From a virus, in IMG/VR virus record IMGVR_UViG_3300004095_000011, positions 1-26,973 of that record: a stretch of 26,973 nt of DNA. One strand, given 5' to 3'. Shown one piece after another: positions 5,347-21,112 of the stretch. Position numbers and translations under genes: made by a program. Each line of letters starts with the position of its first letter. Positions within the stretch are counted from its first letter, which is position 1. The notes beneath the pieces were generated by a model. It was not told the origin of the DNA. It did not search any database and saw only the letters and a list, made by a program, of their open reading frames with translations.

Positions 5347-6073
5347 ACTGGGAATATTTGGCGATTCTTACGCTGCAATAAATAAAAAAGTATATCATAC
5401 TGGCTGGAGTCAATATCTTGAAGATTTAACACCTTACAAGATACACAATCATGCGATCAGCGGTAGTAGTTTATATCACGCATGGAAACAATTTACCAAT
5501 TTTCAAAATTCTTACGATAAGATAGTGTTTGTAGTTACCCACTGGGCACGACAATATATTGAAAATTTAGATGACGGAGAAACCCCGCTCGCACATATAT
5601 CTAGTATAAATCATCTAGAATATCATTTAAAAAATCAAACAACTCCTGTTCCTGTTCGGAAACAATTATTAAATTTATATAATTACTGGATTCATGTAGG
5701 CAATGAACAACAGCGTAGAGATTATCATTTATTAATGTTAAATGATATTCGAACTAAAAGACCAGACGCTTTGATAATATCGGCAATACCTGAAACAGAA
5801 AGTCTTTACATGCATCCAGATCAAATAGATATCAATTCAATAGGAGAAATTGATATTAGTTATTACTTAGGCCCTAATGCTAATGACTGGTGGAAAAAAT
5901 ATGATTGTCGAAGACAAAATCATATGAATGATATTAATAATCAATTGTTTGCCAAGTGTATTAACACGTGGCTAGACACCAATCAACTCGATATGAAGTC
6001 TATTGAATGGCAAGCAGACACTAATCGTCCGTTTGAATATTATTTTGAAAAAAGTTTAGACTGGAGGCTTTGA
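5336..6073 (+). CDS. SGNH/GDSL-hydrolase-like protein
   Basis: This 245-residue soluble protein begins with a strand and LGIFGDSYA, a block I motif in which S11 would be the nucleophile (GDS at 9-11). AISGSSL (about 41-46) fits the block II glycine. Near the C-terminus D190 and H196 (DCRRQNH), followed by a helix NNQLFAKCI, fit the Asp/His block V of SGNH esterases. The usual Asn of block III is not obvious (VVTHWARQ). The family contains esterases and deacetylases acting on lipids, glycans and acylated sugars. It is the first gene after the fibre operon, its start codon lies in a hairpin, and its 3' end overlaps the convergent gene by 18 bases. The family call is fair; the substrate is unknown. 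Confidence 0.65.
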   Translation: MEQTLGIFGDSYAAINKKVYHTGWSQYLEDLTPYKIHNHAISGSSLYHAWKQFTNFQNSYDKIVFVVTHWARQYIENLDDGETPLAHISSINHLEYHLKNQTTPVPVRKQLLNLYNYWIHVGNEQQRRDYHLLMLNDIRTKRPDALIISAIPETESLYMHPDQIDINSIGEIDISYYLGPNANDWWKKYDCRRQNHMNDINNQLFAKCINTWLDTNQLDMKSIEWQADTNRPFEYYFEKSLDWRL

Positions 6074-6808
6074 ATGATCGTACGGACATCCGCTTGCTCT
6101 AGCTTCAGCAAGTGCGGCATATCTTTCTTTTAATGGTCTAAAACGATTTTTCATTTTAATTTGATCGCACAAATAGATTTCATCCCACGGTGTTGGCTGT
6201 TCTACTAACTTAACTGCTTCATCACTACGGAATTTAAAATAAGCCATAGCATCGCCTTTTTTAATTACAATAGTTTCTCTATTAGACCTAACTTCAAATA
6301 CAAGCTCTACGGGCCTAGTCCATTTACTAATATCGTATTCGCCAGGAATCATCGTAGCTTTTTCAGTAAAATCGTTGTGATGTAAAAATGCTGGCATTAC
6401 TTGCACTATCATACTTTCTGTACAAGTAAATTGATTCAACCAATCAAGCCCAACTAGCGGATAAGGATCTATACCTCTTGCGTCATTATATAAAAATCGT
6501 GTGTCGATTAATTTATCAAATACTGTTTGATTAATATTTGGACACCATATTCTATTAGGTTCTGTATCAATTTCACTTACTTCAACATCTATAGTAAGAT
6601 CAAACGGTGCTCTGAAAACAAATGTATTTTTTAAAAAATCAGTATTTGCCGGGCATTTTAAATATATAACACCCTTTCTAGTTTTAGTTATATCTTTTAT
6701 TAAACTAGTATAAGGATAATAATCAGGATCCATCAGAGGACGTATTTCCTCTGCGTGATCTTTAAACCAATCGTGGCTAGTAATAAACGACCAATTAACT
6801 ATTTTCAT
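6056..6808 (-). CDS. Halogenase-associated protein of unknown function, paralogue A
   Basis: A 250-residue protein of unknown function, read from an ATG that overlaps the halogenase stop as ATGA (6805-6808), so the two are translationally coupled. It is visibly related to the protein on the other side of the halogenase. Both have a K-(R/x)-C block followed by a P-x-x-D-x-x-I strand (here residues 51-73), a later PG-x-x-D block (about 155-159) followed by a hydrophobic strand, a KGDAMAY-like turn (184-190), and a C-terminal CPY motif (241-243). It may belong to the DUF6065-like group of small beta-rich proteins, but I hold this loosely. No catalytic motif is evident. Position suggests a partner or substrate-handling protein for the halogenase. 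Confidence 0.6.
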   Translation of the reverse strand: MKIVNWSFITSHDWFKDHAEEIRPLMDPDYYPYTSLIKDITKTRKGVIYLKCPANTDFLKNTFVFRAPFDLTIDVEVSEIDTEPNRIWCPNINQTVFDKLIDTRFLYNDARGIDPYPLVGLDWLNQFTCTESMIVQVMPAFLHHNDFTEKATMIPGEYDISKWTRPVELVFEVRSNRETIVIKKGDAMAYFKFRSDEAVKLVEQPTPWDEIYLCDQIKMKNRFRPLKERYAALAEARASGCPYDHSKPPV

Positions 6809-8301
6809 ATAATGCTGGTCTCAAAAATTCTATCTACTAACTGACTATGTAACATTCCAGCGACATGTCTATGTTTATCATGTTTAACAAAATTTCTTAA
6901 CATAATATTTTCTGCTTCTTCCGGACTCAACGGAATATTTCGCGGAGCTACTGGATATCCCATTTGTATCAGGATAGCACTGAAATTAACACCATTGAAA
7001 ATTGTGTTAAATCTGCCCTTGTAAGGTAAAGTTGCCTTAGGATTTGCTATTAAATCAATATGATGTTGCATACGTTCGCTAGGCTTAAATTTATTCTTTA
7101 CATAATTCCAGAAAGGAGTAGTACGTTCATTACGGTCATAGTGCACCGCTACAAAATCTACAACGTCTTCGAAATACATTTTCATAGTTTGATTAAAATA
7201 GTCTGTGCTATTTTGATCATAGAATTGTTCTCTAAGGGCATTATGTATTTGTGTTGCGCCCGATGTAATTAATGCTATACCTGTGCTTTCCAGTGGTTCT
7301 ACAAATCCAGCACTTAGACCAATTTGTACGCAATTACCTTTCCACTGATCTTCATTATAAAATGGAGTCCAATCAATCACTCTAACTGTGTCACGATCAA
7401 TTCGATTATTCCAGTATTTTACAAAGTAATCTTTAGCTTCTTCTGGATCTGTAACACTACGATTGAATAGCATCCCAGACCCAATACGACTGCTAACTCC
7501 AATTTTCCAAATCCAACCGTGGTCTACCGCTTCGCATTCAGCAAACGGTTTAAATTCTTTATCTCTGTCTTCATATGGAACTGGGTGTACTACAGCCGTA
7601 TCTACAAATAATCTATCCGACAAATCAACACGTTTATCAGCTTGTCTTAAGATACTTCTAAATCCTGTACAGTCCACAAACAAATCACCTTCTACAATTT
7701 CTCCGTTTTTAAGTATTAAATGATCTATGTCACCGTTTTCTTTATGAGCAATATCGACTACATCTGATCGAATAATCTTAATGGCATTTTTTAGCTTATC
7801 TTGTATATACATGGTTAGTTTGCCACAATCAACATGATAGCCGTATCCATCGACGGCCATGATACTCGGATCTACTTTATTATGATTAATATTAACGTCG
7901 TATGTTCCAATAGCGTATTTCTTATAATCGTATTGTTGATTCAATGTCCATATATCATGTACGTATACATCATTAGGATAATTGCTGTAACCATATTTTA
8001 AAAGTCTGTTACCTTTATAAAAAGGATGCCAAATTTCATTGCCTGGTTTAGTCCAGTTGGTAAACAAAATACCAGATTTATATCCTGCGTCAATTTTAGG
8101 AAACCAATCGCTTAATTCAAATCCGCATTCATCTAAAAAGTTTTTAAAATTAATTAAAGTAGCTTCACCGACGCCGATAGGGCTACCTACTTCTTTATCA
8201 ACAACTACAATTTCTATCTCAGGGTTGTTGTTATAAAGATATGCGGCAGTCATCCAGCCTGCTGTTCCTCCACCTACAATTACTAACTTTTCTACTTTCA
8301 T
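6805..8301 (-). CDS. Flavin-dependent halogenase (tryptophan halogenase family), copy 1
   Basis: This 498-residue FAD-dependent halogenase would use FADH2, O2 and halide to make hypohalous acid for an electron-rich substrate. An FAD-binding GGGTAGW lies at 10-16. GVGEAT (43-48) and the YKSGILF segment carry the catalytic Lys (K75). The WxWxIP signature is changed to WIWKIG (263-268), and PLEST with the conserved Glu (E338) lies in SAGFVEPLESTG. The start at 8301 is preferred to 8322 because MKVEKLVIVGGG matches family N-termini and AAGGA precedes it, two bases after the upstream stop. It is flanked by two related unknown proteins. VirX1 of cyanophage Syn10 is a known viral member. Substrate and halide are unknown. 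No flavin reductase is seen nearby. Confidence 0.9.
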   Translation of the reverse strand: MKVEKLVIVGGGTAGWMTAAYLYNNNPEIEIVVVDKEVGSPIGVGEATLINFKNFLDECGFELSDWFPKIDAGYKSGILFTNWTKPGNEIWHPFYKGNRLLKYGYSNYPNDVYVHDIWTLNQQYDYKKYAIGTYDVNINHNKVDPSIMAVDGYGYHVDCGKLTMYIQDKLKNAIKIIRSDVVDIAHKENGDIDHLILKNGEIVEGDLFVDCTGFRSILRQADKRVDLSDRLFVDTAVVHPVPYEDRDKEFKPFAECEAVDHGWIWKIGVSSRIGSGMLFNRSVTDPEEAKDYFVKYWNNRIDRDTVRVIDWTPFYNEDQWKGNCVQIGLSAGFVEPLESTGIALITSGATQIHNALREQFYDQNSTDYFNQTMKMYFEDVVDFVAVHYDRNERTTPFWNYVKNKFKPSERMQHHIDLIANPKATLPYKGRFNTIFNGVNFSAILIQMGYPVAPRNIPLSPEEAENIMLRNFVKHDKHRHVAGMLHSQLVDRIFETSII

Positions 8302-8303
8302 AA

Positions 8304-9035
8304 TTATTCCTTGTAAGGACATTGTCCTTGTTTTATTTTTTTAATTTTTCTATACGCTGATTCAAAAAACGGCAAATTACGATTCATTACTTTAGCTAAT
8401 TCTTTGTCATTCCCGCCAACATAATGTTTTCGTAATTCAATATCACTATCCGATAGTGGCAATAGTTGCGCTAAAGGATGGCCAGCGTTCCACTCGTATC
8501 GTTTGCTTTTTAATAGGAAAATATTTATACTTGAAGTATGTTGATATTTAAAATCTATTACGCCTGGAGGAGTATGGCTGACCATCAAATCTCGGGGATT
8601 ATTCCATGTAGGTTGTATAAAGGCAAATTTTACACCTGATTTTTCTTGGATACGCCAGGGACTTTCGAACTTAACATGAATATAATTGTACCATTCTTGT
8701 GATAATTGATGGTTATTATGATGTGTTAAATTGCTAAGATTATCGGCAAATTCAAAATTACAATTTGTAGCCTGTGTTTGTATAACTACATCACTCCATA
8801 GAGGAATTATAAAACCCTGCTGATATAACGCCATGAATCCTTCGCATCGTTTCATATTAGAACGATTAATAAGCATACCATTTTTGTTTTCAGTAGGCTC
8901 TATTTTAGGTAAATTTTTCCACCACTCTGGATAAAATTCTTTAGATTCTTTTATAGGGAATAAGTCGTAGGCATTAATATTGTTTGTAAAACAATCTACA
9001 ACTATTTTTTTCTTTTTAATGAATATATCAAACAT
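8304..9035 (-). CDS. Halogenase-associated protein of unknown function, paralogue B
   Basis: A 243-residue protein that is not recognised with certainty. It shares with the gene downstream of the halogenase a Cys-containing block (KRCEGFMAL, 62-70), a P-x-x-SD-x-x-I strand (78-85), a PPGVIDF block (156-162), a strand with an AGHPLAQ turn (184-190) and a C-terminal CPY (239-241). The block order and spacing, including RC, then a hydrophobic strand, then PW-x-I and N-x-F-x-L strands, recall DUF6065-like proteins. Its ATG overlaps the upstream oxygenase stop by one base (TAATG), and its own stop is two bases before the halogenase start. This places it firmly in an operon of oxygenase, unknown B, halogenase and unknown A. 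Two Trp near 38-39 and a Lys-rich N-terminus are notable. Confidence 0.6.
   Translation of the reverse strand: MFDIFIKKKKIVVDCFTNNINAYDLFPIKESKEFYPEWWKNLPKIEPTENKNGMLINRSNMKRCEGFMALYQQGFIIPLWSDVVIQTQATNCNFEFADNLSNLTHHNNHQLSQEWYNYIHVKFESPWRIQEKSGVKFAFIQPTWNNPRDLMVSHTPPGVIDFKYQHTSSINIFLLKSKRYEWNAGHPLAQLLPLSDSDIELRKHYVGGNDKELAKVMNRNLPFFESAYRKIKKIKQGQCPYKE
8522..8529 (-). promoter_or_regulatory. TATAAATA box inside paralogue B (possible late promoter)
   Basis: A perfect match to the T4 late-promoter core on the minus strand, about 220 bases before the halogenase start. It could give an internal late transcript for the halogenase. Chance occurrence in AT-rich coding DNA is a real alternative. Confidence 0.25.
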
Positions 9036-9625
9036 TATAATACCAACGGAGTAGTAGTGCTAGAGCAAACATTGCCGACTAACCAAGAATTAAACGCAAT
9101 ACTATGTCTAACAGCATCTGTACTAACAAGTGATTCAACTTCATGGTCTAAATCACTAGGCCAAATCAACAACAAACCTGGTTCTGGATTGATGGTCCAA
9201 AATTCGGCATTGTGAAAATTGTGATTTACAGTATCATACCTTAGTTGTTTATAGCCCCCACGGAGAAACTTAATAGGAGCAGGATGATTTTCAAAATATA
9301 CACATCCGCTAAACACGCTATTCGAGTGTGTGTGCCTTGGGTGGCCTTGCCCGGGGTAGTTTCTGTTAGCTAAACTAGTAGTAATTTTAATGCCGCAGTC
9401 TGGACTGGCGTGTAATTCTTCGTAGAAAAAATATTGTAAATGCGTTCTTATTTGACTTTTTAAATCTTGCCACTCGGGTAAATCTAAAAAATAGTTATTT
9501 TTACTCATTTCATGCCCGCCAATTTCAGTCCATTCAACTGTATCCCAGCTTGGACATTTACTAATATCCAGTTGAGTACAGTATAACGGTGTCGAAAATA
9601 ACGGAAGTACACAATGATTCATCAT
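9035..9625 (-). CDS. 2OG-Fe(II) oxygenase, TIGR02466-type, copy 1
   Basis: This 196-residue protein of the putative 2-oxoglutarate/Fe(II) oxygenase family with the pattern H-x-H-(x5)-SGxxY has H98 and H100 followed by SGCVYF at 106-111. After a proline-glycine turn comes LLLIWPSDLDHEV with the distal His (H161), then R173 in AVRHSIAFNSWL for 2OG binding. The fold would be a double-stranded beta helix. The family's substrates are not established. It is the first gene of a minus-strand operon leading to the halogenase; the next gene overlaps by one base. Two consecutive ATGs occur (9625 and 9622); I give the first. No clear Shine-Dalgarno sequence precedes it. The same family appears three more times in this window. 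Confidence 0.85.
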   Translation of the reverse strand: MMNHCVLPLFSTPLYCTQLDISKCPSWDTVEWTEIGGHEMSKNNYFLDLPEWQDLKSQIRTHLQYFFYEELHASPDCGIKITTSLANRNYPGQGHPRHTHSNSVFSGCVYFENHPAPIKFLRGGYKQLRYDTVNHNFHNAEFWTINPEPGLLLIWPSDLDHEVESLVSTDAVRHSIAFNSWLVGNVCSSTTTPLVL

Positions 9626-9660
9626 GTACTTATTTTATTTTCAGCCCCACCTGAATATTT

Positions 9661-9668: not shown

Positions 9669-9675
9669 TTTGCCT

Positions 9676-10266
9676 ATGAAAATAATAGACGATTTTTTAC
9701 CTAAAGAAGTTTTTGAGCATCTTCAAAAATACGTACTGAGCATGGAATTTCCTTGGTTTTATTCGGAAGCTGTGTCCATAGATCCACGTGCAAATGATAT
9801 TCAGGATCCCATGGCTGTAGAAACTGATGGGTTGCATCACATAATTTTTGATCCTGAAAACGATGCAATAAGTTTTGTACATAAAGTTTTTACACCCTTT
9901 TATCAAGAATTAGAACATCGGTTTGGATTTAAACCCGAGCATCTAATACGCAATAGACTAAGTCAAAAAACTCCTAAAATAGGATTTGTAGACGGGAATT
10001 ATAACATACCGCACGTTGATTATTTTCGTCCACATGTAAGTTTGATATTTTATTTTAACGATTCCGATGGCCCTACTTACATTTTTGATCAAGAATTTAG
10101 ATTTGGAAAAAGAATTAATAAAGGATTTACGGTTAAGGATCGTGTTTACCCAAAGGCAAATAGATTACTTTGGATAGACGGATGGCAATATCATACTGCT
10201 AGTAATCCTATACAGTCTAATAGACGTGTAATACTTAACCTTAATTTAGAATGTCTCTCAACATAG
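9676..10266 (+). CDS. 2OG-Fe(II) oxygenase (HxD type), copy 1
   Basis: This 196-residue oxygenase has the classical iron facial triad H113-x-D115 (in IPHVDY) and distal H173 (DGWQYHTASN), with R184 as the 2OG-binding Arg in the following strand (RRVILNLNL). Between them is SLIFYFNDSDGPTYIFD, a strand pair also seen in the minus-strand oxygenase at 15224-15874, so the two are paralogues. I start at ATG 9676 (MKIIDDFLP) rather than TTG 9670 because the KIIDDFLP opening is usual for these enzymes. The first gene of a three-oxygenase plus-strand operon, it overlaps the next by 16 bases. Hydroxylation of a protein side chain or small molecule is the expected chemistry; the substrate is unknown. 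Confidence 0.85.
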   Translation: MKIIDDFLPKEVFEHLQKYVLSMEFPWFYSEAVSIDPRANDIQDPMAVETDGLHHIIFDPENDAISFVHKVFTPFYQELEHRFGFKPEHLIRNRLSQKTPKIGFVDGNYNIPHVDYFRPHVSLIFYFNDSDGPTYIFDQEFRFGKRINKGFTVKDRVYPKANRLLWIDGWQYHTASNPIQSNRRVILNLNLECLST

Positions 10267-10871
10267 AAAATCATTTTGCCGTTCCTATAGCAACTACTAT
10301 GATAAGCGAGCAAGTCATAGATAACAGTCTTGCTTTGATTAATAATTTTGTAAAAAATAATAATTTTGGAGTTACTGAAGGCAAGCTAGATACTACATAC
10401 TATAGCGATCCTGATACAAATTTGCTGGGAAAATTACAAGATTACGATTTACTAGAAATTATTAATATTAAAGCTAGAGAATTTATGAACGAATTAGGAT
10501 ATAAACCAGATTGTTTTATAGAAATTACTAGCTGGTTACAATTAAACAATCCTAATAGCTATTTTCACAGACATGAACACTATGGAGCAATAGTTAGTGG
10601 TGTTGTATATTTACAAACTCCTGAAAATTGTGGAGATATTACATTTTTTAATCCGCTAGAAGCTAGAAAACAAAATACCGCATTTTTTTATAAAATAAAA
10701 AAGACTCCTGAAAATCCTTACGGCGACATCAATATGGAATATACACCTACCAAAGGAAAAATGATACTATTCGAATCTTGGCTACAACACGCAGTTGGAT
10801 TCAATAGATCTCAAGAAAATAGAATATCTATTTCATTTAATATTTGGGGAGCGCCAGATGCCCCGCGTTGA
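10251..10871 (+). CDS. 2OG-Fe(II) oxygenase, TIGR02466-type, copy 2
   Basis: A 206-residue member of the same family as the gene at 9035-9625. The first metal motif lies in YFHRHEHYGAIVSGVVYL, with H108-x-H110 at the same six-residue distance from SG as in the siblings; H106 is extra. The distal His is H180 (SWLQHAVG), and R191 starts the strand RISISFNIWG. The ATG at 10251 lies within the end of the preceding gene (16-base overlap), and the following gene starts 14 bases before this one ends, so all three are likely coupled in translation. There is a longer insert after SGVVY with many Lys, Asn and Pro residues, which may shape substrate choice. The substrate is unknown. Confidence 0.85.
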   Translation: MSLNIENHFAVPIATTMISEQVIDNSLALINNFVKNNNFGVTEGKLDTTYYSDPDTNLLGKLQDYDLLEIINIKAREFMNELGYKPDCFIEITSWLQLNNPNSYFHRHEHYGAIVSGVVYLQTPENCGDITFFNPLEARKQNTAFFYKIKKTPENPYGDINMEYTPTKGKMILFESWLQHAVGFNRSQENRISISFNIWGAPDAPR

Positions 10872-11439
10872 AATGTGGTTTCCGGTAGCAATATATACCG
10901 AGGATGAATTATTTTCTAAAGAACAAAATGATTCATGGGCTCAACACGTTTTAAATTATAAACAAACTATACCATCAGGCGGAGATGGCTGGTATGGAGA
11001 CACATATACTACTCATGGAACGTTTGACATTTTAAATGACCCAGTATTTGAACCATTAATAGCATCTATTACTAATCATGTTAATAATTTTGCTAAAATG
11101 CACGGCAGTACAGGCTCATTTAAGTGTGATTATGCCTGGGTGAATATTGCCGAATCTGGAAATTTTCAAGAAGGGCACACGCACAATGGCAATACTTTTA
11201 GTTTAGCGTATTATATAACTGCCCCAGAAGGGTCTGGTCAAATTGTATTTGAAGATCCTAAAGAACCAGATATGAAACCAGTAAAAAATATAACTGAAAA
11301 AAATATGTTGAGTTTTACTAAAACAGGAGTAGAACCAAAACAAGGTAGTCTTGTTATTTTTAGATCATACCTTAGACATTTAGTTACTCCAGGAACTAAC
11401 ACTGAACCTCGTATCAGTGTTAGTATGAATTTTAACTAG
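10858..11439 (+). CDS. 2OG-Fe(II) oxygenase, TIGR02466-type, copy 3
   Basis: A 193-residue protein begun at ATG 10858 (MPRVEMWFPVAIYTED). The alternative TTG further upstream would overlap the previous gene by 77 bases and adds a sequence that does not match family N-termini. WVNIAESGNFQEGHTHNGNT carries H107-x-H109, with S115 six residues later, although the SG of its siblings is SL here. The distal His is H174 (RSYLRHLVTP) and R185 leads RISVSMNFN. Family N-termini typically start with a short W/F-P-V-x-I-Y strand, as here. It ends the plus-strand oxygenase trio and overlaps the end of the convergent halogenase gene by 8 bases. The function is expected to be oxidative; the substrate is unknown. 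Confidence 0.85.
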   Translation: MPRVEMWFPVAIYTEDELFSKEQNDSWAQHVLNYKQTIPSGGDGWYGDTYTTHGTFDILNDPVFEPLIASITNHVNNFAKMHGSTGSFKCDYAWVNIAESGNFQEGHTHNGNTFSLAYYITAPEGSGQIVFEDPKEPDMKPVKNITEKNMLSFTKTGVEPKQGSLVIFRSYLRHLVTPGTNTEPRISVSMNFN

Positions 11440-12892
11440 CACGTATTTTTGATATAAACTCTTTATGTCCTATTGTTGGAGTTATTTGCTCCAATGTTTT
11501 TATATTTCTGATAGCAGATTCGGCTTGCTCCTTAATAACAGGATGCATTAATTCAAATTCTTCTCTTATTGCCGACCTATCGAACAAGTTTAATCCGTTT
11601 AAAATATGTATATGATGTGGATCTCTAAATAAAATATAATCTGTGCCGCTTCTAAAATCTTCGGCTATAGGTAAATTTTTACGCCATCTTTTAAGATTAG
11701 TTGCTAGTTTTTCTGGCAACTCTAAGTTTTTAATATCACGCCAAAATTGTGTATTTTCTTTATTAGTCACATAATGTAATATAACAAAATCGCGAATGTT
11801 TGTTAAAATTTCGTCAACGGAGCGATTGTATACTTCTATGGTATGGTCGTCATAATTAGGTAATCTGTGCATTAACAAAAATGCTTGTTGTATACTTGTG
11901 CCAATGCTAGTTGCTTCTAAAGGTTCTACAAAACTAGCACTTAGACCAATTGCACAACAATTCTTAATCCATACTTTGTCTAATGCTCCTGGATCAAAGT
12001 TAATTTGTTTGCCTACTTGTATTTCTTTACCTAAAAATCTTTCAACTTCTTCCTTGGCTTGGTCGGCAGTTATATAATCGCTATCGAAGATATAACCGTT
12101 TCCGCTTCTTCCCCATACTGGAATACTAAACATCCACCCATAATCCATCGCTTGAGCAGTAGTCCATAAGTTATATTCATCAGTATCAGGTAGTTGAAAC
12201 ATTATAGCAGATTTCATTTTTAAATATTTGCTATAACTTTGCCACTTAGCACCTAATTTTGATATTAGTAATTTTTTAAAACCTGTACTATCTATGTAAA
12301 AGGTAGATTTATATTCTCCAGTTTCGCCTACAAGATAATCAATAGCACCCGAGTCATCTAATACAATATCTGTAATTTCGTCATCGATGATGTTGATTCC
12401 TTTTAATTGTGCGACTTTTGTTAAAAAATCATTTAACTTTTGTGTATTAAAGTGGTACTGATTGAAAGGCCCTCTGTCGGATGTAAGGTAAGACGCAACT
12501 ACTTGATTTTTCCAAGCACTTCCGGGATTTAATAATCTATTACCTAACCCTTCTCCGATAATTTTTCCATATGTTGGATAAGATTGACCGTTTTTCTGTT
12601 CGGCATCCGGACTTGTACTATGTAGGTAATCATTTTCTGCCCACCCCTTAAACATAATTCCTGATTTAAATGTAGCATCACAATGTTTAATTACAGTCTT
12701 AAAATTTACGCCAATATATTGCATAAATTCATTCCAGTGTTCTGTACTACCTTCCCCCACACCAATAATTCCAATCCTTTGAGATCTAATAAGTTCTATT
12801 TCAGAAGCAGGAAATCTAGTTTTAAGTATAAGTGCAGCTACGAATCCGGCAGTTCCGCCGCCTACTACTGATATTTTTTTTAATTGGTTCAT
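11432..12892 (-). CDS. Flavin-dependent halogenase (tryptophan halogenase family), copy 2
   Basis: This 486-residue FAD-dependent halogenase has VVGGGTAGF (9-17), GVGEGS at 44-49, the catalytic-Lys segment ATFKSGIMFKGW with K76, the signature altered to WMFSIP (W253, F255, P258), and SFVEPLEATS with the conserved Glu E326. In characterised halogenases the two Trp of WxWxIP help stop the flavin hydroperoxide from acting as a monooxygenase. Phe at the second position is conservative but could matter. Its ATG overlaps the upstream oxygenase stop by 4 bases (ATGA), so these two form an operon. It is more distant from the pair at 15849-18943 than they are from each other. Substrate and halide are unknown. 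Confidence 0.9.
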   Translation of the reverse strand: MNQLKKISVVGGGTAGFVAALILKTRFPASEIELIRSQRIGIIGVGEGSTEHWNEFMQYIGVNFKTVIKHCDATFKSGIMFKGWAENDYLHSTSPDAEQKNGQSYPTYGKIIGEGLGNRLLNPGSAWKNQVVASYLTSDRGPFNQYHFNTQKLNDFLTKVAQLKGINIIDDEITDIVLDDSGAIDYLVGETGEYKSTFYIDSTGFKKLLISKLGAKWQSYSKYLKMKSAIMFQLPDTDEYNLWTTAQAMDYGWMFSIPVWGRSGNGYIFDSDYITADQAKEEVERFLGKEIQVGKQINFDPGALDKVWIKNCCAIGLSASFVEPLEATSIGTSIQQAFLLMHRLPNYDDHTIEVYNRSVDEILTNIRDFVILHYVTNKENTQFWRDIKNLELPEKLATNLKRWRKNLPIAEDFRSGTDYILFRDPHHIHILNGLNLFDRSAIREEFELMHPVIKEQAESAIRNIKTLEQITPTIGHKEFISKIRAS

Positions 12893-13542
12893 ATGCTATT
12901 TAAGTTATTGTTAATATGGTCAAAACTATATATGAAAAACAATAAAGTTTTACGTATATCCGACGAAGCTTTGTAATTATTTGGACGATGATACATTTTA
13001 GAATCATAACCGACCATACGATTGTAATGATTTCCAATACGAATTGTTTCTGTAAAACAACTTCTGTTTTCTTGTAAACGTTGTTTGTAATCATCTTCAA
13101 CAACTCCATGTAAATTGAGTTGTGTAAAGACTTCTTTATCACGCAATTTAGGTATGCCCTCACCTAAAAAAATCGAAGTGCCAGTATTAAAATTTGATTC
13201 GCTACTAGTCAGATATATTAATCCAGCAAGTACAGCATCGTCCGTGTGTACCCACCCTTGGTTAAGTTCGTCATCTTCGTACACTTCATTTATATGGAAG
13301 AATATATCTATGTGATAATTGCGAATTCCAGGAAATACATCGTAAGAAACTCTATTAGAAAAATAATTAGCAAAACCGCTTATTACCGGATCTTCGCTAA
13401 ACATTAAATTTTCTGATCTTAATCCAGGATAGTAACTAGCTCGTGAATATGTTACATTATTAGATAGCGCAATAACATCTTCTGGATTTTCAAAATAGTT
13501 ATCTCTGCTTATAAGATATCGTTCAAATGGGTGGCTTGCCAT
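12889..13542 (-). CDS. 2OG-Fe(II) oxygenase-like protein (DUF6445 / prolyl-hydroxylase-like)
   Basis: A 217-residue protein with a recognisable iron site: H99-T-D101 in GWVHTDDAVLAGLIYL, then an insert containing GTSIFLGEG, then the distal His H185 (KMYHRPNNY) and R197 before the strand KTLLFFIYSF. This pattern, with a Q-x-W-V-H-x-D entry and a YHRP-type distal segment, resembles the DUF6445 group of 2OG oxygenase-like proteins. That name is a weaker claim than the fold. The gene directly precedes halogenase copy 2 with an ATGA overlap. It faces a divergent oxygenase gene across a 38-base spacer; no good ribosome site is visible upstream. It is likely to act on the same substrate as its halogenase partner, by context only. 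Confidence 0.75.
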   Translation of the reverse strand: MASHPFERYLISRDNYFENPEDVIALSNNVTYSRASYYPGLRSENLMFSEDPVISGFANYFSNRVSYDVFPGIRNYHIDIFFHINEVYEDDELNQGWVHTDDAVLAGLIYLTSSESNFNTGTSIFLGEGIPKLRDKEVFTQLNLHGVVEDDYKQRLQENRSCFTETIRIGNHYNRMVGYDSKMYHRPNNYKASSDIRKTLLFFIYSFDHINNNLNSI

Positions 13543-13576: not shown

Positions 13577-13580
13577 TCTC

Positions 13581-14195
13581 ATGATGACTCTTACTGAAAA
13601 TCCAATGTTTGTAAGCTCTTGCTATACTAGTTATCTTACAACTGTCAACAACAAGGCAATAATTGAAGGTGTTGAACAAGTTCAAGCTACTAAACCAAGT
13701 AATACGTTTAGTAATGCTGGTGGATATCAATCTCCTAGTATGTATTTTCCTGATTTTGATAATCCAGAAACCGCAAATTTATTTAATGAACATATTATTC
13801 CTATGAGTAATCACGTTGTTGACGAAGTTTGGGCATTGCCTACGGGCGAACGTAAAATGAATTACTGGTATAATGTTAACGGAAAACATACATATAATAG
13901 AGAACACACACATCCTAGTTCATTTCTTAGCGGAGTTTACTATATAAAAGTTCCTAAGGATAGCGGCCATATACACTTTTTAAGAAGCCCTAGCGAAATT
14001 GATCGTATGGAATTTATGACAAAATTTATCAGAGGAAAAAAGTTTGATAACAATAGGATAAACACCGAGCACTGGTTTATACCTAAAGAAGGTATGTTAA
14101 TATTGTTTCCCGGACATTTAACCCATTTTGTTGAAAGAAACTTAACCGAAGAAGAAGACGATAGACGTATAAGTTTATCTTTTAATTTTTTCTAA
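13581..14195 (+). CDS. 2OG-Fe(II) oxygenase, TIGR02466-type, copy 4
   Basis: A 204-residue member of the H-x-H family. REHTHPSSFLSGVYYIKVP contains H109-x-H111 with SG six residues later, the most typical version in this window. The distal His is H182 (GHLTHFVE), with R195/R196 before ISLSFNFF. Two ATGs stand in tandem (13581 and 13584). The only upstream signal is the TATAAATA box, and no Shine-Dalgarno sequence lies at normal spacing. It is a single-gene plus-strand transcript between two minus-strand operons, overlapping the 3' end of the oxygenase/HD fusion gene by 21 bases. The first residues (NPMFVSSCYTSYL) differ from the short W/F-P-V strand of copy 3. The substrate is unknown. Confidence 0.87.
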   Translation: MMTLTENPMFVSSCYTSYLTTVNNKAIIEGVEQVQATKPSNTFSNAGGYQSPSMYFPDFDNPETANLFNEHIIPMSNHVVDEVWALPTGERKMNYWYNVNGKHTYNREHTHPSSFLSGVYYIKVPKDSGHIHFLRSPSEIDRMEFMTKFIRGKKFDNNRINTEHWFIPKEGMLILFPGHLTHFVERNLTEEEDDRRISLSFNFF

Positions 14196-15227
14196 TTTGT
14201 TTTTATAAGCAATAACATCTTCTTCAAATGCTTGTTTTCTAGTAATTTCATCTAGCAAATTTGCATAAGCTAGTAAAACTGGTTCGGAGTCTGTCCATCT
14301 AGCATCTAGTAATTGCTTATCTCTATCTGGTAAGCTACAAAAATTAAACACTAATTCTTCGGCACGTTCTCCAATTAAAGATTTTAAATGGTCTCTGTCG
14401 CTGATTTGAAACGTGCTATAAAATTCAGTTCCATACGCAGAGTGAAACAACCCAGCTAGGCAAATATGTAACGGTTGATTTTGAAGTTTTAAAATTTTAT
14501 AAACATTAAAACAGTGATCGAAAAACTCAATTCCGCTGTGTCTTATTCCTTGTGTACTAGATTTTAAATAATCTATAGCTTCCTGTTCAAATTCACTTAT
14601 ATCTATGTTGCCTTCTGGAAATAAATCTGCTATAGGAAAACATTCATAATATCCAGAATGTTTTCTAGTATGAAATTTCATAGTTAATACAAATCTAAAT
14701 TCTGGAGAAAAGAACGAAGGCCCTGAACTCTTATGTGGAATGCTTGCTGAAAATGTAACTACTCTACCAGGTAGTAAAGAAATGCTATGTAAAATTTCTT
14801 TAGCATATGGATCTGAAAAATGTGTTTCACCTTCCCAGCTAGGATCCCACGTTGTATTAAAATAATATAGTAATGTAAAATCTTCATCAACATCACTATC
14901 AATATGATAATGATAAACATCCTGTGCTGTTGACAGGTTAATATAAGCTCTGCTTATTCTAAGGTTATTATCTATTATTTGCTGTTTAATAACATCAGTA
15001 CAAGAACCTTTAAAAAATTCCAGCCATAACACATCGTATATACTATATTCGCTTTTTAAAGTTTTAAATTGCTGAGTAACTGGAACGGTCGAAGGAGCAG
15101 ATCTTTCAATTTTATATCCTGATTTTTTAGCAATTTCTAGCATTTGAAACATTCGGCTGAAATCAAACATATCATCATATATGTTAATAAATTTATTACC
15201 GTCTACATCAATGCGTCTGTGTTTCAT
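14175..15227 (-). CDS. Fusion: 2OG-Fe(II) oxygenase domain + C-terminal HD-like (DUF6817-like) domain
   Basis: A 350-residue protein with two parts. Residues about 1-190 form a 2OG oxygenase: H108-x-D110 in YHYHIDSDVDEDFTLLYYF, distal H165 (ASIPHKSSGPS) and R178 before FVLTMKF. Residues about 210-350 are helical and carry HSGIEFFDHCFNVYKIL (H230, D237, H238) and LHICLAGLFHSAYGTEFY (H254, H262). This is the DUF6817-type pattern, which I read as an HD-phosphohydrolase-like or HD-type di-iron oxygenase-like fold. YANLLDE (321-327) could give the last Asp. The ATG overlaps the upstream oxygenase stop by 4 bases (ATGA). This is the end of the operon with two halogenases and another oxygenase. The two metal sites suggest sequential oxidation or a small-molecule cleavage; that is inference. 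Confidence 0.8.
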   Translation of the reverse strand: MKHRRIDVDGNKFINIYDDMFDFSRMFQMLEIAKKSGYKIERSAPSTVPVTQQFKTLKSEYSIYDVLWLEFFKGSCTDVIKQQIIDNNLRISRAYINLSTAQDVYHYHIDSDVDEDFTLLYYFNTTWDPSWEGETHFSDPYAKEILHSISLLPGRVVTFSASIPHKSSGPSFFSPEFRFVLTMKFHTRKHSGYYECFPIADLFPEGNIDISEFEQEAIDYLKSSTQGIRHSGIEFFDHCFNVYKILKLQNQPLHICLAGLFHSAYGTEFYSTFQISDRDHLKSLIGERAEELVFNFCSLPDRDKQLLDARWTDSEPVLLAYANLLDEITRKQAFEEDVIAYKNKLEKIKR

Positions 15228-15874: not shown

Positions 15875-17414
15875 TTTTATATCTCAACTGTCTAAAATAT
15901 CTAATAAAATCATCATAAGAATAACATTCATTAACTTCTTGATCCCATTTCCACTGTAGTTCATAAAAAGTTTCTAACGCAATATCTGCCATGCTTCCAT
16001 GTCTAGGAATAGATTGTTGTAATGCGTTATTACCAAGCTGTTTATCAAACATGTGTAAGCCCGCCATAACAAAACTATATAATGCCCATCCTGCGCTACC
16101 TTGATATAAAGGAAAATCGTTGCTACTTGGTAATCTTGTTTTAGACATACTTAATAAAGATTCAACAAAATCTGTCTTAGTTGCGCCAGTACCGATATAT
16201 TTCCAAAATTCACTATCTGAACGACCACCCATATAGTGCATAACTAGGAAATCTTTTACATCGTCAAACATTTTTTTAGTTCGTTGATTGTAAATTTTCA
16301 TAGTTCCTTCGTTCATAGTTTCTTCTAAGGTATTTCCGCAGTATTCAAACACAAAGTTATGTGCTTGTACAATAGTAGTATGAATACTAGTAGCTTCTAA
16401 TGGTTCTAAGAATGCGCTACTTAATCCTATAGTAATACAATTTTTAACCCATGCGTTATCTTGTCTGCCGGTATGGAATTTAATTACTTTAATAGGATCT
16501 ATTTCTCTACCTAAAATAGTTTCAATTTCTTCTTGAGCTTTATCAGGAGTTGTGAATTCGTCGCTGAACACATATCCGCAACCCTTTCTATCCATCAACG
16601 GAATTTGCCACATCCATCCAGATTTTTGTGCCCAAGCAGTTGTATAAGGTTCTGGCATTTCGTTGTCTAAATATTTTAACTGGAATGGCAGTCCGGTGTT
16701 AATAGGTAAATGTTTTTGATAGCTAATCCATTTGTTTGGCAATTTATTCATAAGGACTTTAGCAAATCCAGTACAATCAATAAAGAAGTCGCCTTCGATA
16801 GTTTGCCCGTCTTTTAATAATACCGACTTTATATTTCCAGTTTCACTGTGTAACGCTACATCTAGTACTTCTGAATCTATATGGTTGGCATTTAAGTTGT
16901 TACGCATGCATACCTTTTTAAAGTATTTTCCAACTAGATGCGCATCTACGTGCATTGCGTGATTATAATCATTAAACGTATTTGTAGCTTTATTAAAATT
17001 ACTGCCGCCAGCAAGAATTCGGTGACCTATTTTAGAAGTTTTACCGATATCTTTGTGATGACTTAAATTAGCAATTCCATAAGCAAACAAGGCATCTGGA
17101 GATGCGCTGTTAGTCCAACTACCGTCGATTGGTCCTTGATAATATTCGTCTATATTATTAGTCCAGCCTTTATGTTTAATAGAATATTTTAGTGTGGCAC
17201 CTGTTTCAGCAATAAATTCATCGTGGTCACACCCGAAATCATAAAAGAAATTATTTACTAAGTCAGTTAATCTACCAGTGGTACTTTCGCCTACACCGAT
17301 AACACCAATTTTTGTCGATTCAATAACTGTGACTTTGTGTTGTTTCCATCTAGTGGCTGCCATTAATGCTGTTGCCCAACCGGCTGTGCCTCCGCCTACT
17401 ATTACTATATGCAT
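15849..17414 (-). CDS. Flavin-dependent halogenase (tryptophan halogenase family), copy 3
   Basis: This 521-residue halogenase has the canonical features: GGGTAGW (7-13), GVGEST (40-45), LKYSIKHKGW with K76, an intact WMWQIP signature (267-272), and SAFLEPLEATS with E340. Of the four copies it is the one that keeps the full WxWxIP consensus. A late block with DDVKDFLVMHYMGGRSDSEFW and SAGWALYSFVMAG is almost the same in the next-upstream halogenase, showing a recent tandem duplication. Start: ATG 17414 with AGGA at good spacing, 10 bases inside the end of the upstream halogenase. It overlaps the downstream oxygenase by 26 bases. Reduced flavin must come from elsewhere; substrate and halide are unknown. 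Confidence 0.92.
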   Translation of the reverse strand: MHIVIVGGGTAGWATALMAATRWKQHKVTVIESTKIGVIGVGESTTGRLTDLVNNFFYDFGCDHDEFIAETGATLKYSIKHKGWTNNIDEYYQGPIDGSWTNSASPDALFAYGIANLSHHKDIGKTSKIGHRILAGGSNFNKATNTFNDYNHAMHVDAHLVGKYFKKVCMRNNLNANHIDSEVLDVALHSETGNIKSVLLKDGQTIEGDFFIDCTGFAKVLMNKLPNKWISYQKHLPINTGLPFQLKYLDNEMPEPYTTAWAQKSGWMWQIPLMDRKGCGYVFSDEFTTPDKAQEEIETILGREIDPIKVIKFHTGRQDNAWVKNCITIGLSSAFLEPLEATSIHTTIVQAHNFVFEYCGNTLEETMNEGTMKIYNQRTKKMFDDVKDFLVMHYMGGRSDSEFWKYIGTGATKTDFVESLLSMSKTRLPSSNDFPLYQGSAGWALYSFVMAGLHMFDKQLGNNALQQSIPRHGSMADIALETFYELQWKWDQEVNECYSYDDFIRYFRQLRYKNGFSDIKY

Positions 17415-18943
17415 AAATTATCCTGATAATATTTACAAAACTGATCAAACGGCATTAAATCTGCTGATTCTTGACACCAATTTGACAAAGTCTGACCAAA
17501 TGCTGTTTCTGTATAACGGTCCATGGATGTTTGATTATCCATAGCCGGTATTTTAATTTCGTTATAAGCCATGTCAGCGTCTATAATACCTATACCGGCC
17601 ATGACAAAACTGTATATTCCCCAACCTGCGCTTCCAAAATACTCAGGAAAATCGTTATATGTACACAATCTATTTTTTGACATTGTTAATAACGTGTCTA
17701 CAAATTCTGTTCGAGTAGCCCCAGAAGAAATATGTCTCCAAAATTCACTATCGGTTCTTCCTCCCATATAGTGCATAACTACAAAATCTTTAAGATCTTC
17801 GTACAACGTTCCTATTCGGTTGTTATATTGTTTTATACTACCTGTATTTACTGTAAGATCTACAGTTGGTTTTATATATTCGAATATTAAATTTTTAAGC
17901 TGAACGATTACAGCGTGTATTCCAGTAGCTTCTAATGGTTCTAAAAATGCAGCACTTAGGCCAATAGCTACAACGTTGTTAACCCAAACATTTTCTAATC
18001 TACCAGATTCAAATTTAATAATTTTTATTGGGTCTATTTCTTGTCCTAGAATAGTTTCAATTTCTTCTTGAGCTTTTTCAGGAGTCGTAAACGCATCGCA
18101 GAAAGTATAACCATTGCCTTTACGATGTAATAGTGGTGTGCGCCACATCCATCCAGCTTTTTGCGCCCACGCAGTTGTATACGGTTCTGGAGTTTCTTCT
18201 ACATCGTAGGGTAATAGAAACGGCATTGCTGTATTAACCGGTAAATTTTCTTTATAACTAATCCATTTATTAGGCAAATGTTTCATTAGCAGTTTAGCAA
18301 ATCCACTGCAGTCTAAGAAAAAATCCCCTTTTATGATTTGATTATCCGAAGATATTAATTCTTTAACATACCCTCGGTCGTCGAGATTAACTCCTGTAAT
18401 TTCGCAATCAATATGGTTAATGTTTTCTTGCCTCATACACAGTTTTTTAAAATATTTTCCTACTAGATGTCCGTCTACATGGAATCCGTAATCGCTATTA
18501 ACAAAAGATTGTGTTTTATAATTAAAACTAGATAAGTTGTTTTTAATTTTGTAACCCAGTGGGGATATTATATGAAAATCATCATTGGGGAGATTTTTTA
18601 ATCCATGAGCAAACAATAAATCTGGTAGCATTTTATATGTTAAACTACCATCGAGTGGTCCAATATAGTGTTGATCTAAATTATTAGTCCATCCCTTGTG
18701 TTTAATTCCGTATTTTATCGAAGCACCAGTTTCTTTAATAAACTCGTCTTGATCGCATCCAAAATTCCATAATTCATTTGTAACAACTGATGTCAAATAC
18801 CCAGTAGTCCCTTCGCCAACACCAATTATTCCTAATTTGCTAGAATCAACAACCGTAACAGAGTGTTGCCCTTCTAGCTTCTTAAGCAAAAATAATGCAG
18901 CTAACCACCCTGCTGTGCCTCCACCGACTACGACTATATTCAT
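17405..18943 (-). CDS. Flavin-dependent halogenase (tryptophan halogenase family), copy 4
   Basis: A 512-residue halogenase, first gene of the minus-strand operon. GGGTAGW is at 7-13, GVGEGT at 41-46, IKYGIKHKGW carries K77, the signature is WMWRTP (265-270; Ile to Thr), and AAFLEPLEATG carries E338. The start is set at 18943 (MNIVVVGGGTAG), preceded by TTGGAG; a longer reading from 19003 adds 20 residues that do not fit family N-termini. It is clearly a sibling of copy 3, with shared blocks PNKWISY, EPYTTAWAQK, EEIETILG-x-EIDPIK and VMHYMGGR. The two genes overlap by 10 bases, which makes fusion or coupled synthesis possible; a heteromeric halogenase is a speculative reading. Substrate and halide are unknown. 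Confidence 0.92.
   Translation of the reverse strand: MNIVVVGGGTAGWLAALFLLKKLEGQHSVTVVDSSKLGIIGVGEGTTGYLTSVVTNELWNFGCDQDEFIKETGASIKYGIKHKGWTNNLDQHYIGPLDGSLTYKMLPDLLFAHGLKNLPNDDFHIISPLGYKIKNNLSSFNYKTQSFVNSDYGFHVDGHLVGKYFKKLCMRQENINHIDCEITGVNLDDRGYVKELISSDNQIIKGDFFLDCSGFAKLLMKHLPNKWISYKENLPVNTAMPFLLPYDVEETPEPYTTAWAQKAGWMWRTPLLHRKGNGYTFCDAFTTPEKAQEEIETILGQEIDPIKIIKFESGRLENVWVNNVVAIGLSAAFLEPLEATGIHAVIVQLKNLIFEYIKPTVDLTVNTGSIKQYNNRIGTLYEDLKDFVVMHYMGGRTDSEFWRHISSGATRTEFVDTLLTMSKNRLCTYNDFPEYFGSAGWGIYSFVMAGIGIIDADMAYNEIKIPAMDNQTSMDRYTETAFGQTLSNWCQESADLMPFDQFCKYYQDNLCI
17430..17437 (-). promoter_or_regulatory. TGTAAATA box before halogenase copy 3
   Basis: A minus-strand TGTAAATA, one mismatch from the T4 late core, ends 15 bases before the ATG at 17414, with AGGA between. 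The same box with nearly the same spacing precedes halogenase copy 4, so it may have been duplicated with the gene. Here it lies inside the coding end of copy 4. Confidence 0.3.
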
Positions 18944-18960
18944 ACAATCTCCAAGTAATA

Positions 18961-18968: not shown

Positions 18969-19004
18969 TATAGCACGTGGGCACCTAAAATAAACCAGTT
19001 CAAA

Positions 19005-19032
19005 ATTACAAATATCTAAAATTTTCTATGAT
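19005..19032 (+). promoter_or_regulatory. Weak sigma70-like promoter for the plus-strand hydroxylase operon
   Basis: ATTACA (19005-19010), 16 bases, then TATGAT (19027-19032) upstream of the ATG at 19063. CCCCGGAGTAATT supplies a good ribosome site (GGAG 19054-19057). The -10 has one mismatch and the -35 two, so this is tentative. The rest of the 119-base spacer holds no other clear signal. Confidence 0.28.
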
Positions 19033-19062
19033 AAGTAACTATACATTTTCCCCGGAGTAATT

Positions 19063-19671
19063 ATGACAGACGAATTCGAATCAAACAGCGGTTTTACAGA
19101 TTTGGCCGAAGAAACAGGTACGCCAATGGCAACTTTAGACATTGTATCAGTTAATAAATCTAATATTTTCACTAAAGAAGAATGTGAAAAAATCTTAGCA
19201 GGGTGTATTGAAGAACTTTGGTTGCCAACTAAAGTTATTGGAGATAAGAATTTTCATTCAGCTAAACGACAAAAATTAAGAGGGGATGTTAGCGGATTTC
19301 CTTTTGTAAATATTCGCGATGTTACTAAATCTGCTAATACAGAAATTTATGATTTTAATTTGCTAGGAATTATTGATCAGGATTTCCCACAAATTTTTCA
19401 GTATAAAGAAGGCGACTATTATAATTGGCATATTGAAATAACTCCAATGGCTCCTTCACGTAAAATTACATTTATTATTAATTTAACAGACGACACTACA
19501 TACGAAGGTGGAAAAGTTGAATTTCTCAATACAGATACCGGCGAAGTTAATATTGCCGAACAAGGAACATGTTTAGTATTTCCTTCATATATGCCTTGGC
19601 GAATTACTCCTGTAACTAGTGGTAAGAATAGCATTATTGTTGGTCATGTTCATGGGGCCATTTTTAAGTGA
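19063..19671 (+). CDS. Prolyl-4-hydroxylase-like 2OG oxygenase with degraded active site
   Basis: A 202-residue protein with the P4H-type double-stranded beta helix pattern: QYKEGDYYNWHIE, then KITFIINLTDD-x-x-YEGGKVEF, then CLVFPSYMPWRITPVTSG. The first metal motif is H123-I-E125 (Glu in place of the usual Asp). At the position of the distal iron-binding His stands W179 (MPWRITPVT), and at the position of the 2OG-binding Arg stands N189. Its downstream neighbour has H and R at the same places (SHIQHQVTPVTRGTRYS). So this copy may be inactive, a structural partner, or able to bind metal in another way. Start: good ribosome site CCCCGGAG. Its stop overlaps the next start as GTGA. Confidence 0.8.
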   Translation: MTDEFESNSGFTDLAEETGTPMATLDIVSVNKSNIFTKEECEKILAGCIEELWLPTKVIGDKNFHSAKRQKLRGDVSGFPFVNIRDVTKSANTEIYDFNLLGIIDQDFPQIFQYKEGDYYNWHIEITPMAPSRKITFIINLTDDTTYEGGKVEFLNTDTGEVNIAEQGTCLVFPSYMPWRITPVTSGKNSIIVGHVHGAIFK

Positions 19672-20453
19672 TTTTAGAATATAGTTATTGGTGGTTTAAA
19701 TCTGTTATTCCAGCAGATGTTTGTAACCAAATTATCGAAATGGGTCTAAATAAGATGTTAGAACAGAAAGAAAAATTTGGTGAAGATTCAGTTAACGCAA
19801 GTGTTGGAGGCTGGGTACAGAAAAAACCTGGCCTTGAGATACCTGTAGCAGATAATACTATAGAATCATTACAACAAGAAGGTAAGGATCTTTCAAAAAC
19901 TTATGTTAGAGATTCTAATGTTGTATTTTTAAATGATTCAAAACTATATGAATTACTATGGCCATATGTACGTGGCGCAAACAAACAGGCTAATTGGAAT
20001 TTTGACTGGGATTATACAGAAGATTTACAATTTACCAAGTACGGTCCCGGGCAATTTTACGGATGGCATGCAGACGCTAATGCGTATCCTTATGAAGAAT
20101 TTGACCCTAATATACACGAACTTCAAAAAGATGAAAACGGCAACCCTGTAAAAGATTTTCTTGGAAATGTATTGCCAGCTGATATGAGATACACTTCTAT
20201 TAAAGACCGTATAGGTAAAATACGAAAACTTAGTGTTACAGTAAGTCTAAATGATCCTAGTGAATATGATGGCGGCAATTTAAAATTTGATTTAGGCCCG
20301 CATAGAGAAGACAGATATCATACTTGCGAAGAAATACGTCCACAAGGATCTGTAATTGTATTTCCATCGCACATACAACATCAGGTTACACCTGTAACAC
20401 GCGGCACACGTTACAGTCTAGTTGCTTGGAATATAGGAACACCATGGAAATAA
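19668..20453 (+). CDS. Prolyl-4-hydroxylase-like 2OG-Fe(II) oxygenase
   Basis: A 261-residue hydroxylase-type oxygenase. The start is GTG at 19668, overlapping the previous stop as GTGA. The iron site is H134-A-D136 (GQFYGWHADANAYP), distal H238 (SHIQHQVTPVT), with R248 for 2OG in GTRYSLVAW. An insert of about 40 residues with DENGNPVKDFLG lies between the HxD and the next strand KLSVTVSLNDPSEYDGGNL. Plain PKHD/P4H-type proteins are common in T4-like cyanophages, where their substrate is undefined. It sits between a degenerate relative and another oxygenase in a plus-strand operon that ends in a tail assembly chaperone, so a virion-protein substrate is possible but unproven. Confidence 0.87.
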   Translation: MILEYSYWWFKSVIPADVCNQIIEMGLNKMLEQKEKFGEDSVNASVGGWVQKKPGLEIPVADNTIESLQQEGKDLSKTYVRDSNVVFLNDSKLYELLWPYVRGANKQANWNFDWDYTEDLQFTKYGPGQFYGWHADANAYPYEEFDPNIHELQKDENGNPVKDFLGNVLPADMRYTSIKDRIGKIRKLSVTVSLNDPSEYDGGNLKFDLGPHREDRYHTCEEIRPQGSVIVFPSHIQHQVTPVTRGTRYSLVAWNIGTPWK

Positions 20454-21112
20454 CATACCCTGAACAATTTAAAAAAGACAGTTATTTGGCGCTTAAAAAA
20501 GTTATACCAAATGATTTGTGTCGAGTGGCTACAAAGTACGCTCTTTTGAAAGAAGAAACAGAATTTACACCAGAAGACCCTAACGCACAAGTCCCAGGAG
20601 CACACTCTGTGTATAGTGATACTTTTATGGAAACATTAATGTCATTTTTGTTACCATACATGGAAAAATATACAGGATTAGAACTAGCACCTACATATAC
20701 ATACTACAGGGTATATCGTCCAGGTATGGATTTGGCACGTCATAAAGATAGAGAAAGCTGTGAAATCAGTACCACTGTGTGTTTGGGTTACAAATACCTT
20801 AATAATAATCCAGATTACAACTGGGGTATGTACGTAGATAAAGATTCTGTAGGGCTAAATCCTCCTAGAGGATTCGTTAGTGCCGGAAATCCAGGTGAAA
20901 TGATTTTACAAGAACCCGGTGATTTAATAATATACAGAGGGTGCGAAGTGGAACACTGGAGAGAAAAGTTTGATGCTAGCTATGGTAGCTATCAAGTACA
21001 GGCATTTTTTCACTATATTGACAAAAACGGTCCTTATTATCCAGCATTTAAATATGATAAAAGACCCGGTTTAGGTAGAAAAGCCGAAACACGTCGCGGC
21101 ATAAATAACTAA
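20444..21112 (+). CDS. 2OG-Fe(II) oxygenase, third gene of hydroxylase trio
   Basis: A 222-residue protein started at ATG 20444 (MEITYPEQFKKDSYL), 10 bases inside the previous gene; the longer frame upstream is out-of-frame reading of that gene. The iron site is H100-K-D102 (LARHKDRESCEIS) and distal H171 (GCEVEHWREKF). The strand that normally carries the 2OG Arg reads YQVQAFFHYID, with Gln instead of Arg, as in a subgroup of phage oxygenases that end in FxHY-(I/V)-D. A block WGMYVDKDSVGLNPPRGF inserts between the metal motifs. The C-terminus is basic (GRKAETRRG). It completes three coupled oxygenase genes. The substrate is unknown; a role on virion or host surface protein is inference. Confidence 0.82.
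   Translation: MEITYPEQFKKDSYLALKKVIPNDLCRVATKYALLKEETEFTPEDPNAQVPGAHSVYSDTFMETLMSFLLPYMEKYTGLELAPTYTYYRVYRPGMDLARHKDRESCEISTTVCLGYKYLNNNPDYNWGMYVDKDSVGLNPPRGFVSAGNPGEMILQEPGDLIIYRGCEVEHWREKFDASYGSYQVQAFFHYIDKNGPYYPAFKYDKRPGLGRKAETRRGINN
21100..21107 (+). promoter_or_regulatory. CATAAATA late-promoter-like box before tail assembly chaperone
   Basis: CATAAATA (NATAAATA core) lies at the end of the third hydroxylase gene. Its predicted start near 21113 gives a leader of about 23 bases containing GAGGAG before the ATG at 21136. The spacing is ideal for separate late expression of the structural gene. Confidence 0.45.

Follow-up and report, generated by a model that had tools for sequence, protein, structure and literature searches.

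The virus record IMGVR_UViG_3300004095_000011, whose complete 26,973 bases are the window analysed here, contains a block of about 15 kb (6056-21112) encoding four flavin-dependent halogenases (FDHs) of the PF04820 family, eleven 2-oxoglutarate (2OG) oxygenase-like proteins and two DUF6065 proteins, as recognised with Pfam and PHROG. The block recurs in many uncultured phages as an island with a fixed address between the tail fibres and the neck genes (gp13-gp15). Judging from its gene content and position, its most likely role is to decorate the fibres of the virus itself or the surface of the host. What is new here is the set of four FDHs, their coupling to DUF6065, an address conserved across lineages, oxygenases of an HxH type and an association with glycine-rich fibres.

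Halogenases, oxygenases and DUF6065 proteins

All reading frames of the block are intact. Its genes are the following.

6056..6808, minus strand: U17480, DUF6065 family (phrog_17480), overlaps FDH1 by 4 nt
6805..8322 (likely start 8301), minus: FDH1 (PF04820, E 5e-91); orthologues in contigs L005, L006, L046 and L086
8304..9035, minus: U7084, DUF6065 family, predicted dUTPase-like fold (phrog_7084; AlphaFold2 and Foldseek)
9035..9625, minus: O1, PF13759 2OG-like (E 1e-14), HxH...H...R
9670..10266, plus: O2, 2OG-like (phrog_274, E 1e-29), HxD...H...R
10251..10871, plus: O3, PF13759 2OG-like (E 3e-22; TIGR02466 over cutoff), HxH...H...R
10858..11439 (frame opens at 10795, likely start 10858), plus: O4, PF13759 2OG-like (E 4e-20), HxH...H...R
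11432..12892, minus: FDH2 (PF04820, E 8e-90); orthologues at 62-71%
12889..13542, minus: O5, DUF6445 2OG-like (PF20043, E 3e-6), HxD...H...R
13581..14195, plus: O6, PF13759 2OG-like (E 8e-21), HxH...H...R
14175..15227, minus: O7, 2OG oxygenase fused to DUF6817 (PF20680, E 4e-22; PF13640, E 4e-5); orthologue in L086
15224..15874, minus: O8, 2OG-like (phrog_274, E 9e-27), HxD...H...R, overlaps FDH3; 78% to L046
15849..17414, minus: FDH3 (PF04820, E 1e-94); orthologues at 62-68%
17405..18943, minus: FDH4 (PF04820, E 4e-93), a paralogue of FDH3 in the tree
19063..19671, plus: O9, 2OG-like (PF13640, E 1e-8), distal His replaced by Trp
19668..20453, plus: O10, 2OG oxygenase (PF13640, E 6e-14), HxD...H...R
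20444..21112 (frame opens at 20324, likely start 20444), plus: O11, 2OG-like (phrog_2954, E 1e-42), HKD...H

An earlier note, made from the letters of this DNA, had described four halogenases with conserved catalytic residues, eleven 2OG-like proteins and two halogenase-flanking proteins inside a structural region, and this inventory held. The four FDHs lie where they had been placed (PF04820, E 8e-90 to 1e-94); all are full-length matches with the flavin adenine dinucleotide motif GGGTAG (GxGxxG), and all four retain the Lys and Glu equivalent to PrnA K79 and E346. Across viral FDHs, the catalytic Lys is present in 272/275 sequences and the Glu in 256/275. The window FDHs are predicted halogenases with their catalytic residues intact. 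The GWxWxIP motif is exact in FDH3 (GWMWQIP) and reads GWIWKIG in FDH1, GWMFSIP in FDH2 and GWMWRTP in FDH4, and the C-terminal regions differ between the four proteins.

The eleven 2OG-like assignments, drawn from Pfam, PHROG and metal-ligand motifs, stand with a qualification: O1, O3, O4 and O6 are of the HxH type and O9 has no distal His. A metal triad is found in ten of the eleven, as HxD...H in O2, O5, O7, O8, O10 and O11 and as HxH...H in the other four, which form the PF13759 set and whose HxH...H...R pattern is invariant across 22 aligned relatives. The distal Arg accompanies HxD...H in O2, O5, O7, O8 and O10; that of O11 was not aligned. In O5, residues H99, D101, H185 and R197 are invariant in the alignment. 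O9 keeps HxE, and its distal metal-ligand His is Trp in the window and Tyr in L046 and L005, so that it is possibly a non-catalytic member retained in the block. The PHROG labels "DNA endonuclease V" (O2 and O8), "minor coat protein" (O5) and "ferrochelatase" (O11) were set aside because 2OG-type motifs are present. The labels of PHROG families 274, 1644 and 2954 are probably wrong, and the same labels stand in the S-SSM7 and HTVC008M records. The nearest solved structures of the HxH members, 3bvc and 2rg4, are both uncharacterised. In O7 (14175-15227), the HxxxAGLFHSxYGT motif of the DUF6817 part looks HD-like, and this part might be a second oxygenase centre.

The two halogenase-flanking proteins, U17480 and U7084, proved to be homologous, as the profile of each finds the other. 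PF19541 (DUF6065) was matched by 6/35 family members (best E 7e-7); no Pfam profile matches U7084 directly, and the assignment of the two window proteins to DUF6065 comes through the family. A scan with U17480 alone gave only two loci. In a first neighbour survey, an FDH lies directly beside 26/39 DUF6065-family genes, almost all of which overlap it by 1-89 nt, and the DUF6065 and FDH genes of the window are predicted to be translationally coupled. Such overlap suggests that the two proteins are made together and may form a complex. The open-licence literature searched gave no function for DUF6065. The AlphaFold model of U7084 (mean pLDDT, a confidence score, 86.7) has a weak Foldseek resemblance to dUTPases, with TM-scores of 0.3-0.4 to the query; both window proteins also show a dUTPase-like GxxDxxY...AGxPLxQxxP pattern.

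Recurrence of the island in related phages

The claim of operon-level pairing survives in part. The gene order alternates between strands, which divides the block into about six units (U17480-FDH1-U7084-O1; O2-O3-O4; FDH2-O5; O6; O7-O8-FDH3-FDH4; and O9-O10-O11 followed by the tail-fibre assembly chaperone, TFA); O5 and FDH2 overlap by 4 nt. Syntenic halogenase, 2OG and DUF6065 orthologues are present in about ten contigs other than the window. Among these, L005, L006, L046 and L086 have the block in the same order, with most orthologues 45-78% identical, and a second scan brought L177 and L179-L183, where the order is GroE-TFA-2OG-FDH...FDH1-DUF6065. Up to six PF04820 matches occur in one relative. 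Gene content differs between relatives, as seen with an SGNH-like gene replacing an FDH, the insertion of U7084, O1 and O7, and the FDH3/FDH4 paralogy. The fibre-side and neck-side flanks were both within reach at 20/151 viral FDH loci.

As these syntenic loci had been found through their halogenases, and as 2OG gene density plotted against gene distance from the FDH was flat in loci selected in this way, we used a control anchored on STR1, the gp15-like tail sheath stabiliser gene of the neck side. STR1 retrieved 80 loci, of which 36 extend 6 kb or more past it and were counted: an FDH was present in 15 and a 2OG gene in 19, with 14 having both and 16 neither. A 2OG gene is present in 14/15 loci with an FDH versus 5/21 loci without one (Fisher p=4e-5, relatedness uncorrected), which indicates that, within one structural lineage, the cassette is largely gained or missing as a whole and keeps a fixed address. 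The search for conserved halogenase-oxygenase neighbours that the earlier note had proposed therefore gave a positive answer, both in the syntenic contigs and in this control, and the outcome named there as refuting, that homologues never co-occur, is excluded. These results support a conserved, dedicated island.

Structural setting and flanking genes

The block is bordered on one side by tail-fibre genes (T1-T4) and on the other by a fibre chaperone, GroE, a Nudix-like gene and neck genes.

772..1878, plus: T1, fibre protein with a Peptidase_S74 intramolecular chaperone (PF13884, E 6e-11)
1880..2983, plus: T2, glycine-rich fibre/adhesin-like protein, candidate substrate (weak Gly_rich_2; orthologues in L005, L006 and L046 at 62-65%)
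2998..4158, plus: T3, glycine-rich fibre/adhesin-like protein, candidate substrate (PF21722 Gly_rich_2, E 6e-12)
4170..5306, plus: T4, glycine-rich fibre/adhesin-like protein, candidate substrate (PF21722 Gly_rich_2, E 2e-7)
5336..6073, plus: protein with an SGNH-like N-terminus (by eye), without a Pfam match
21136..21597, plus: TFA, tail-fibre assembly chaperone (PF16778, E 6e-17)
21661..23657, minus: phage GroEL and GroES (PF00118, E 7e-71; PF00166, E 6e-29)
23732..24181, minus: Nudix-like protein (label by eye), neck-side edge of the island, beside STR1 in relatives as well
24163..25665, minus: STR1, gp15-like tail sheath stabiliser (profile match to the annotated gp15 of S-SSM7, E 3e-88)
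25665..26972, minus: STR2, virion structural protein of the neck region (phrog_11591, E 3e-66)

Syntenic comparison shows that the gene at 5336..6073 occupies the place of a fifth halogenase in L005, L006 and L046. The contig G001 (66,241 bases) is 100% identical to the window across the 16.8 kb compared and has the same four halogenases; an assembly artefact was rejected, since G001 carries the block unchanged. Further genes of this contig encode a gp23-like capsid protein, a tail sheath and two giant fibres of 3575 and 2808 aa, which point to a T4-like myophage as the source. The best named relatives of STR2 come from jumbo phages, among them Atu_ph07 and PA5oct, and we assign the window by sequence to a T4-like, jumbo-type myophage. 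Capsid, fibres, the S74 chaperone, Gly_rich_2, TFA, sheath and the gp15-like flank together support the structural-region setting of the block. The genes of the two giant fibres (L089, 1-10725 and 10774-19200), with five to six CBM_5_12-like modules, adjoin the window in G001. The phage's own GroEL and GroES stand at the island edge, a position that GroE genes also occupy in L176-L185 and L245-L246.

Evolution of the halogenases and known phage systems

In a tree of 168 FDHs, sampled by similarity to the window and of FastTree quality, phage and cellular labels change 4 times, versus 48.7 when shuffled. Three deep clades made up of phage sequences hold the window FDHs, with FDH3 and FDH4 as paralogues. 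A single acquisition as an auxiliary metabolic gene was rejected, since these three clades are shared with the relatives. Among cellular relatives, of the BrvH/Xcc4156 type, FDHs arrayed in tandem next to TonB-dependent receptors are frequent, at times accompanied by Cupin_8 or DUF6445 genes. Like the window, these arrays combine tandem FDHs, in some cases hydroxylase-like genes, and an adjoining gene for an exposed surface protein. Unlike the window, where the neighbours are fibre and neck genes, they have a TonB-dependent receptor, few 2OG genes and no detected DUF6065, and their FDHs mostly belong to separate clades. Divergent halogenase-like proteins with a short length of about 390-410 aa were also seen (G008:38419-39462, G013:133143-134183 and G037:3837-6055); they match PF04820 in two pieces and are often near full-length FDHs.

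The statement that a single viral halogenase is known, VirX1 of cyanophage Syn10, did not hold, as 70 named phage records match FDH3 in tblastn, at no more than about 36% identity, with up to three match places in S-RIM44. Cyanophages have carried annotated prnA genes since 2010, up to two each together with up to five 2OG genes (PMC3037559), and an FDH was reported in 20/153 cyanophages (PMC10452541). The prnA products of cyanophages and of Pelagibacter phage HTVC008M, and VirX1, share PF04820 and the same catalytic residues with the window FDHs. However, T4-like cyanophages have one or two FDHs per genome (PMC3037559) and no many-2OG block where examined. HTVC008M also resembles the window in its overlapping 2OG-FDH pair and its five 2OG genes around neck genes. 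The closest precedent is the cluster of a predicted halogenase and multiple 2OG genes, proposed to make a halogenated amino acid or sugar, in the jumbo cyanophages S-SSM6a and S-SSM7 (Iyer et al. 2021, PMC7824862). As in the window, an FDH, several 2OG genes and DUF6445 lie in S-SSM7 between tail fibre/TFA and gp13-gp15. However, S-SSM7 has one FDH instead of four, its cluster includes carbamoyltransferase, heptose and cupin genes that the window lacks, DUF6065 was not detected there, and no Gly_rich_2 linkage was reported for the cluster. S-SSM7 and HTVC008M, both cultured phages, have small versions of the locus at a comparable address. No description of multi-FDH/2OG phage islands was found in the open-licence literature searched.

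Possible functions of the island

Only tailoring enzymes were recognised in the block: Pfam and PHROG identified no nonribosomal peptide synthetase, polyketide synthase, ligase, carbamoyltransferase or sugar-nucleotide gene in 6056-21112, so the scaffold must be supplied either by host metabolism or by translation. Of the translated candidates, those encoded nearest are the glycine-rich fibre proteins T2-T4. We favour, with a probability of roughly 0.4, an island that tailors fibre proteins of the virion. More tentatively, the phage may have a post-translational modification system that adds halogen and hydroxyl groups to the glycine-rich adhesins of its own tail fibres, with the DUF6065 proteins as halogenase partners. 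In the favoured reading, the host would supply reduced flavin, from which each FDH would generate an electrophilic halogen species to modify aromatic (Trp/Tyr) side chains; the 2OG enzymes would hydroxylate other side chains, and DUF6065 would assist each FDH in handling its polypeptide substrate. The adhesins T2-T4 or the giant fibres would be the targets, with an effect on stability or receptor binding. If there were several distinct sites to modify, one would expect FDH paralogues with different C-termini, in three deep phage clades and with catalytic residues kept, as seen here. A precedent for chemistry on Trp inside proteins comes from the flavoproteins QhpG and LodB, which oxygenate and do not halogenate; they share a related flavoprotein fold with the window FDHs, to which their profiles give weak, below-cutoff matches.

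The link to glycine-rich fibres is suggestive only. In the first STR1-anchored set, over-cutoff Gly_rich_2 matches were present in 6/7 contigs with an FDH and 0/8 without. A second set of 26 more contigs gave none; most of its FDH-positive contigs end inside or just past the island, and contigs were counted only with the far flank present, sorted by eye. Pooled over informative contigs, the counts are 6/11 versus 0/19 (p=8e-4, relatedness uncorrected). Several aromatic residues are kept in all orthologues (W113, W169 and W273 of T2, W178 and W283 of T3, W110 and W170 of T4). A number of observations weigh against fibre tailoring. Five informative FDH-positive contigs have no over-cutoff Gly_rich_2, and the association is small and uncorrected for relatedness. 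Trp and Tyr in T2-T4 are no more conserved than other residues overall, and some phage FDHs, such as the S-RIM44 copy, lie outside any 2OG cluster beside fibre genes. Within the window, no flavin reductase could be identified. A search for T4 late promoters gave two matches, fewer than chance and without enrichment, so expression timing can be suggested from gene position only. Finally, the adjacency to fibres may merely reflect a plastic insertion site.

Annotations of phage halogenases go back to at least 2010, and the island, its fixed address, the DUF6065 partner and the glycine-rich fibre association narrow the question of their native substrate to halogen and hydroxyl marks on fibres. 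If fibre tailoring is correct, enzymatic halogenation would be linked to virus-host recognition, and many diverged halogenases, possibly acting on polypeptides, would become available as tools. A post-translational system would amount to chemical tuning or diversifying of receptor-binding proteins, for which no phage description was found in the open-licence literature searched.

Somewhat less probable than fibre tailoring is that the enzymes modify a host surface glycan, a capsule or a small molecule derived from an amino acid or sugar, in the service of superinfection exclusion or host competitiveness. Iyer et al. proposed this for jumbo cyanophages (PMC7824862), and it is strengthened by related islands in L022, L024, L033, L036 and S-SSM7, where genes for heptose kinase/adenylyltransferase, epimerase and carbamoyltransferase accompany an FDH; the TonB-dependent receptors beside cellular FDH arrays likewise speak of nutrient or glycan uptake. 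However, no sugar, carbamoyl or scaffold-building genes were recognised in the window block or in the contigs closely syntenic with it, and a position in the structural module beside fibres would be unusual for a pathway that acts on the host surface.

A highly plastic site of insertion, gathering oxygenase and halogenase genes, separately or loosely selected and without one shared function, would account for the varying gene content and for the roughly 16/36 phages of the same structural lineage that have neither gene at this address. We consider it improbable, given an order conserved over 45-78% protein identity, the overlap of FDH and DUF6065 genes, the FDH-2OG association in the STR1-anchored loci and the retention of catalytic residues in nearly all viral FDHs. 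Modification of phage nucleotides or DNA appears very improbable. U7084 does have Foldseek matches to dUTPases, and 2OG enzymes can hydroxylate bases, but the TM-scores of these matches are low, DNA-modifying partners were not recognised, the 2OG members match PF13759 and prolyl 4-hydroxylase-like families and not TET/JBP, and the cassette lies in the structural region.

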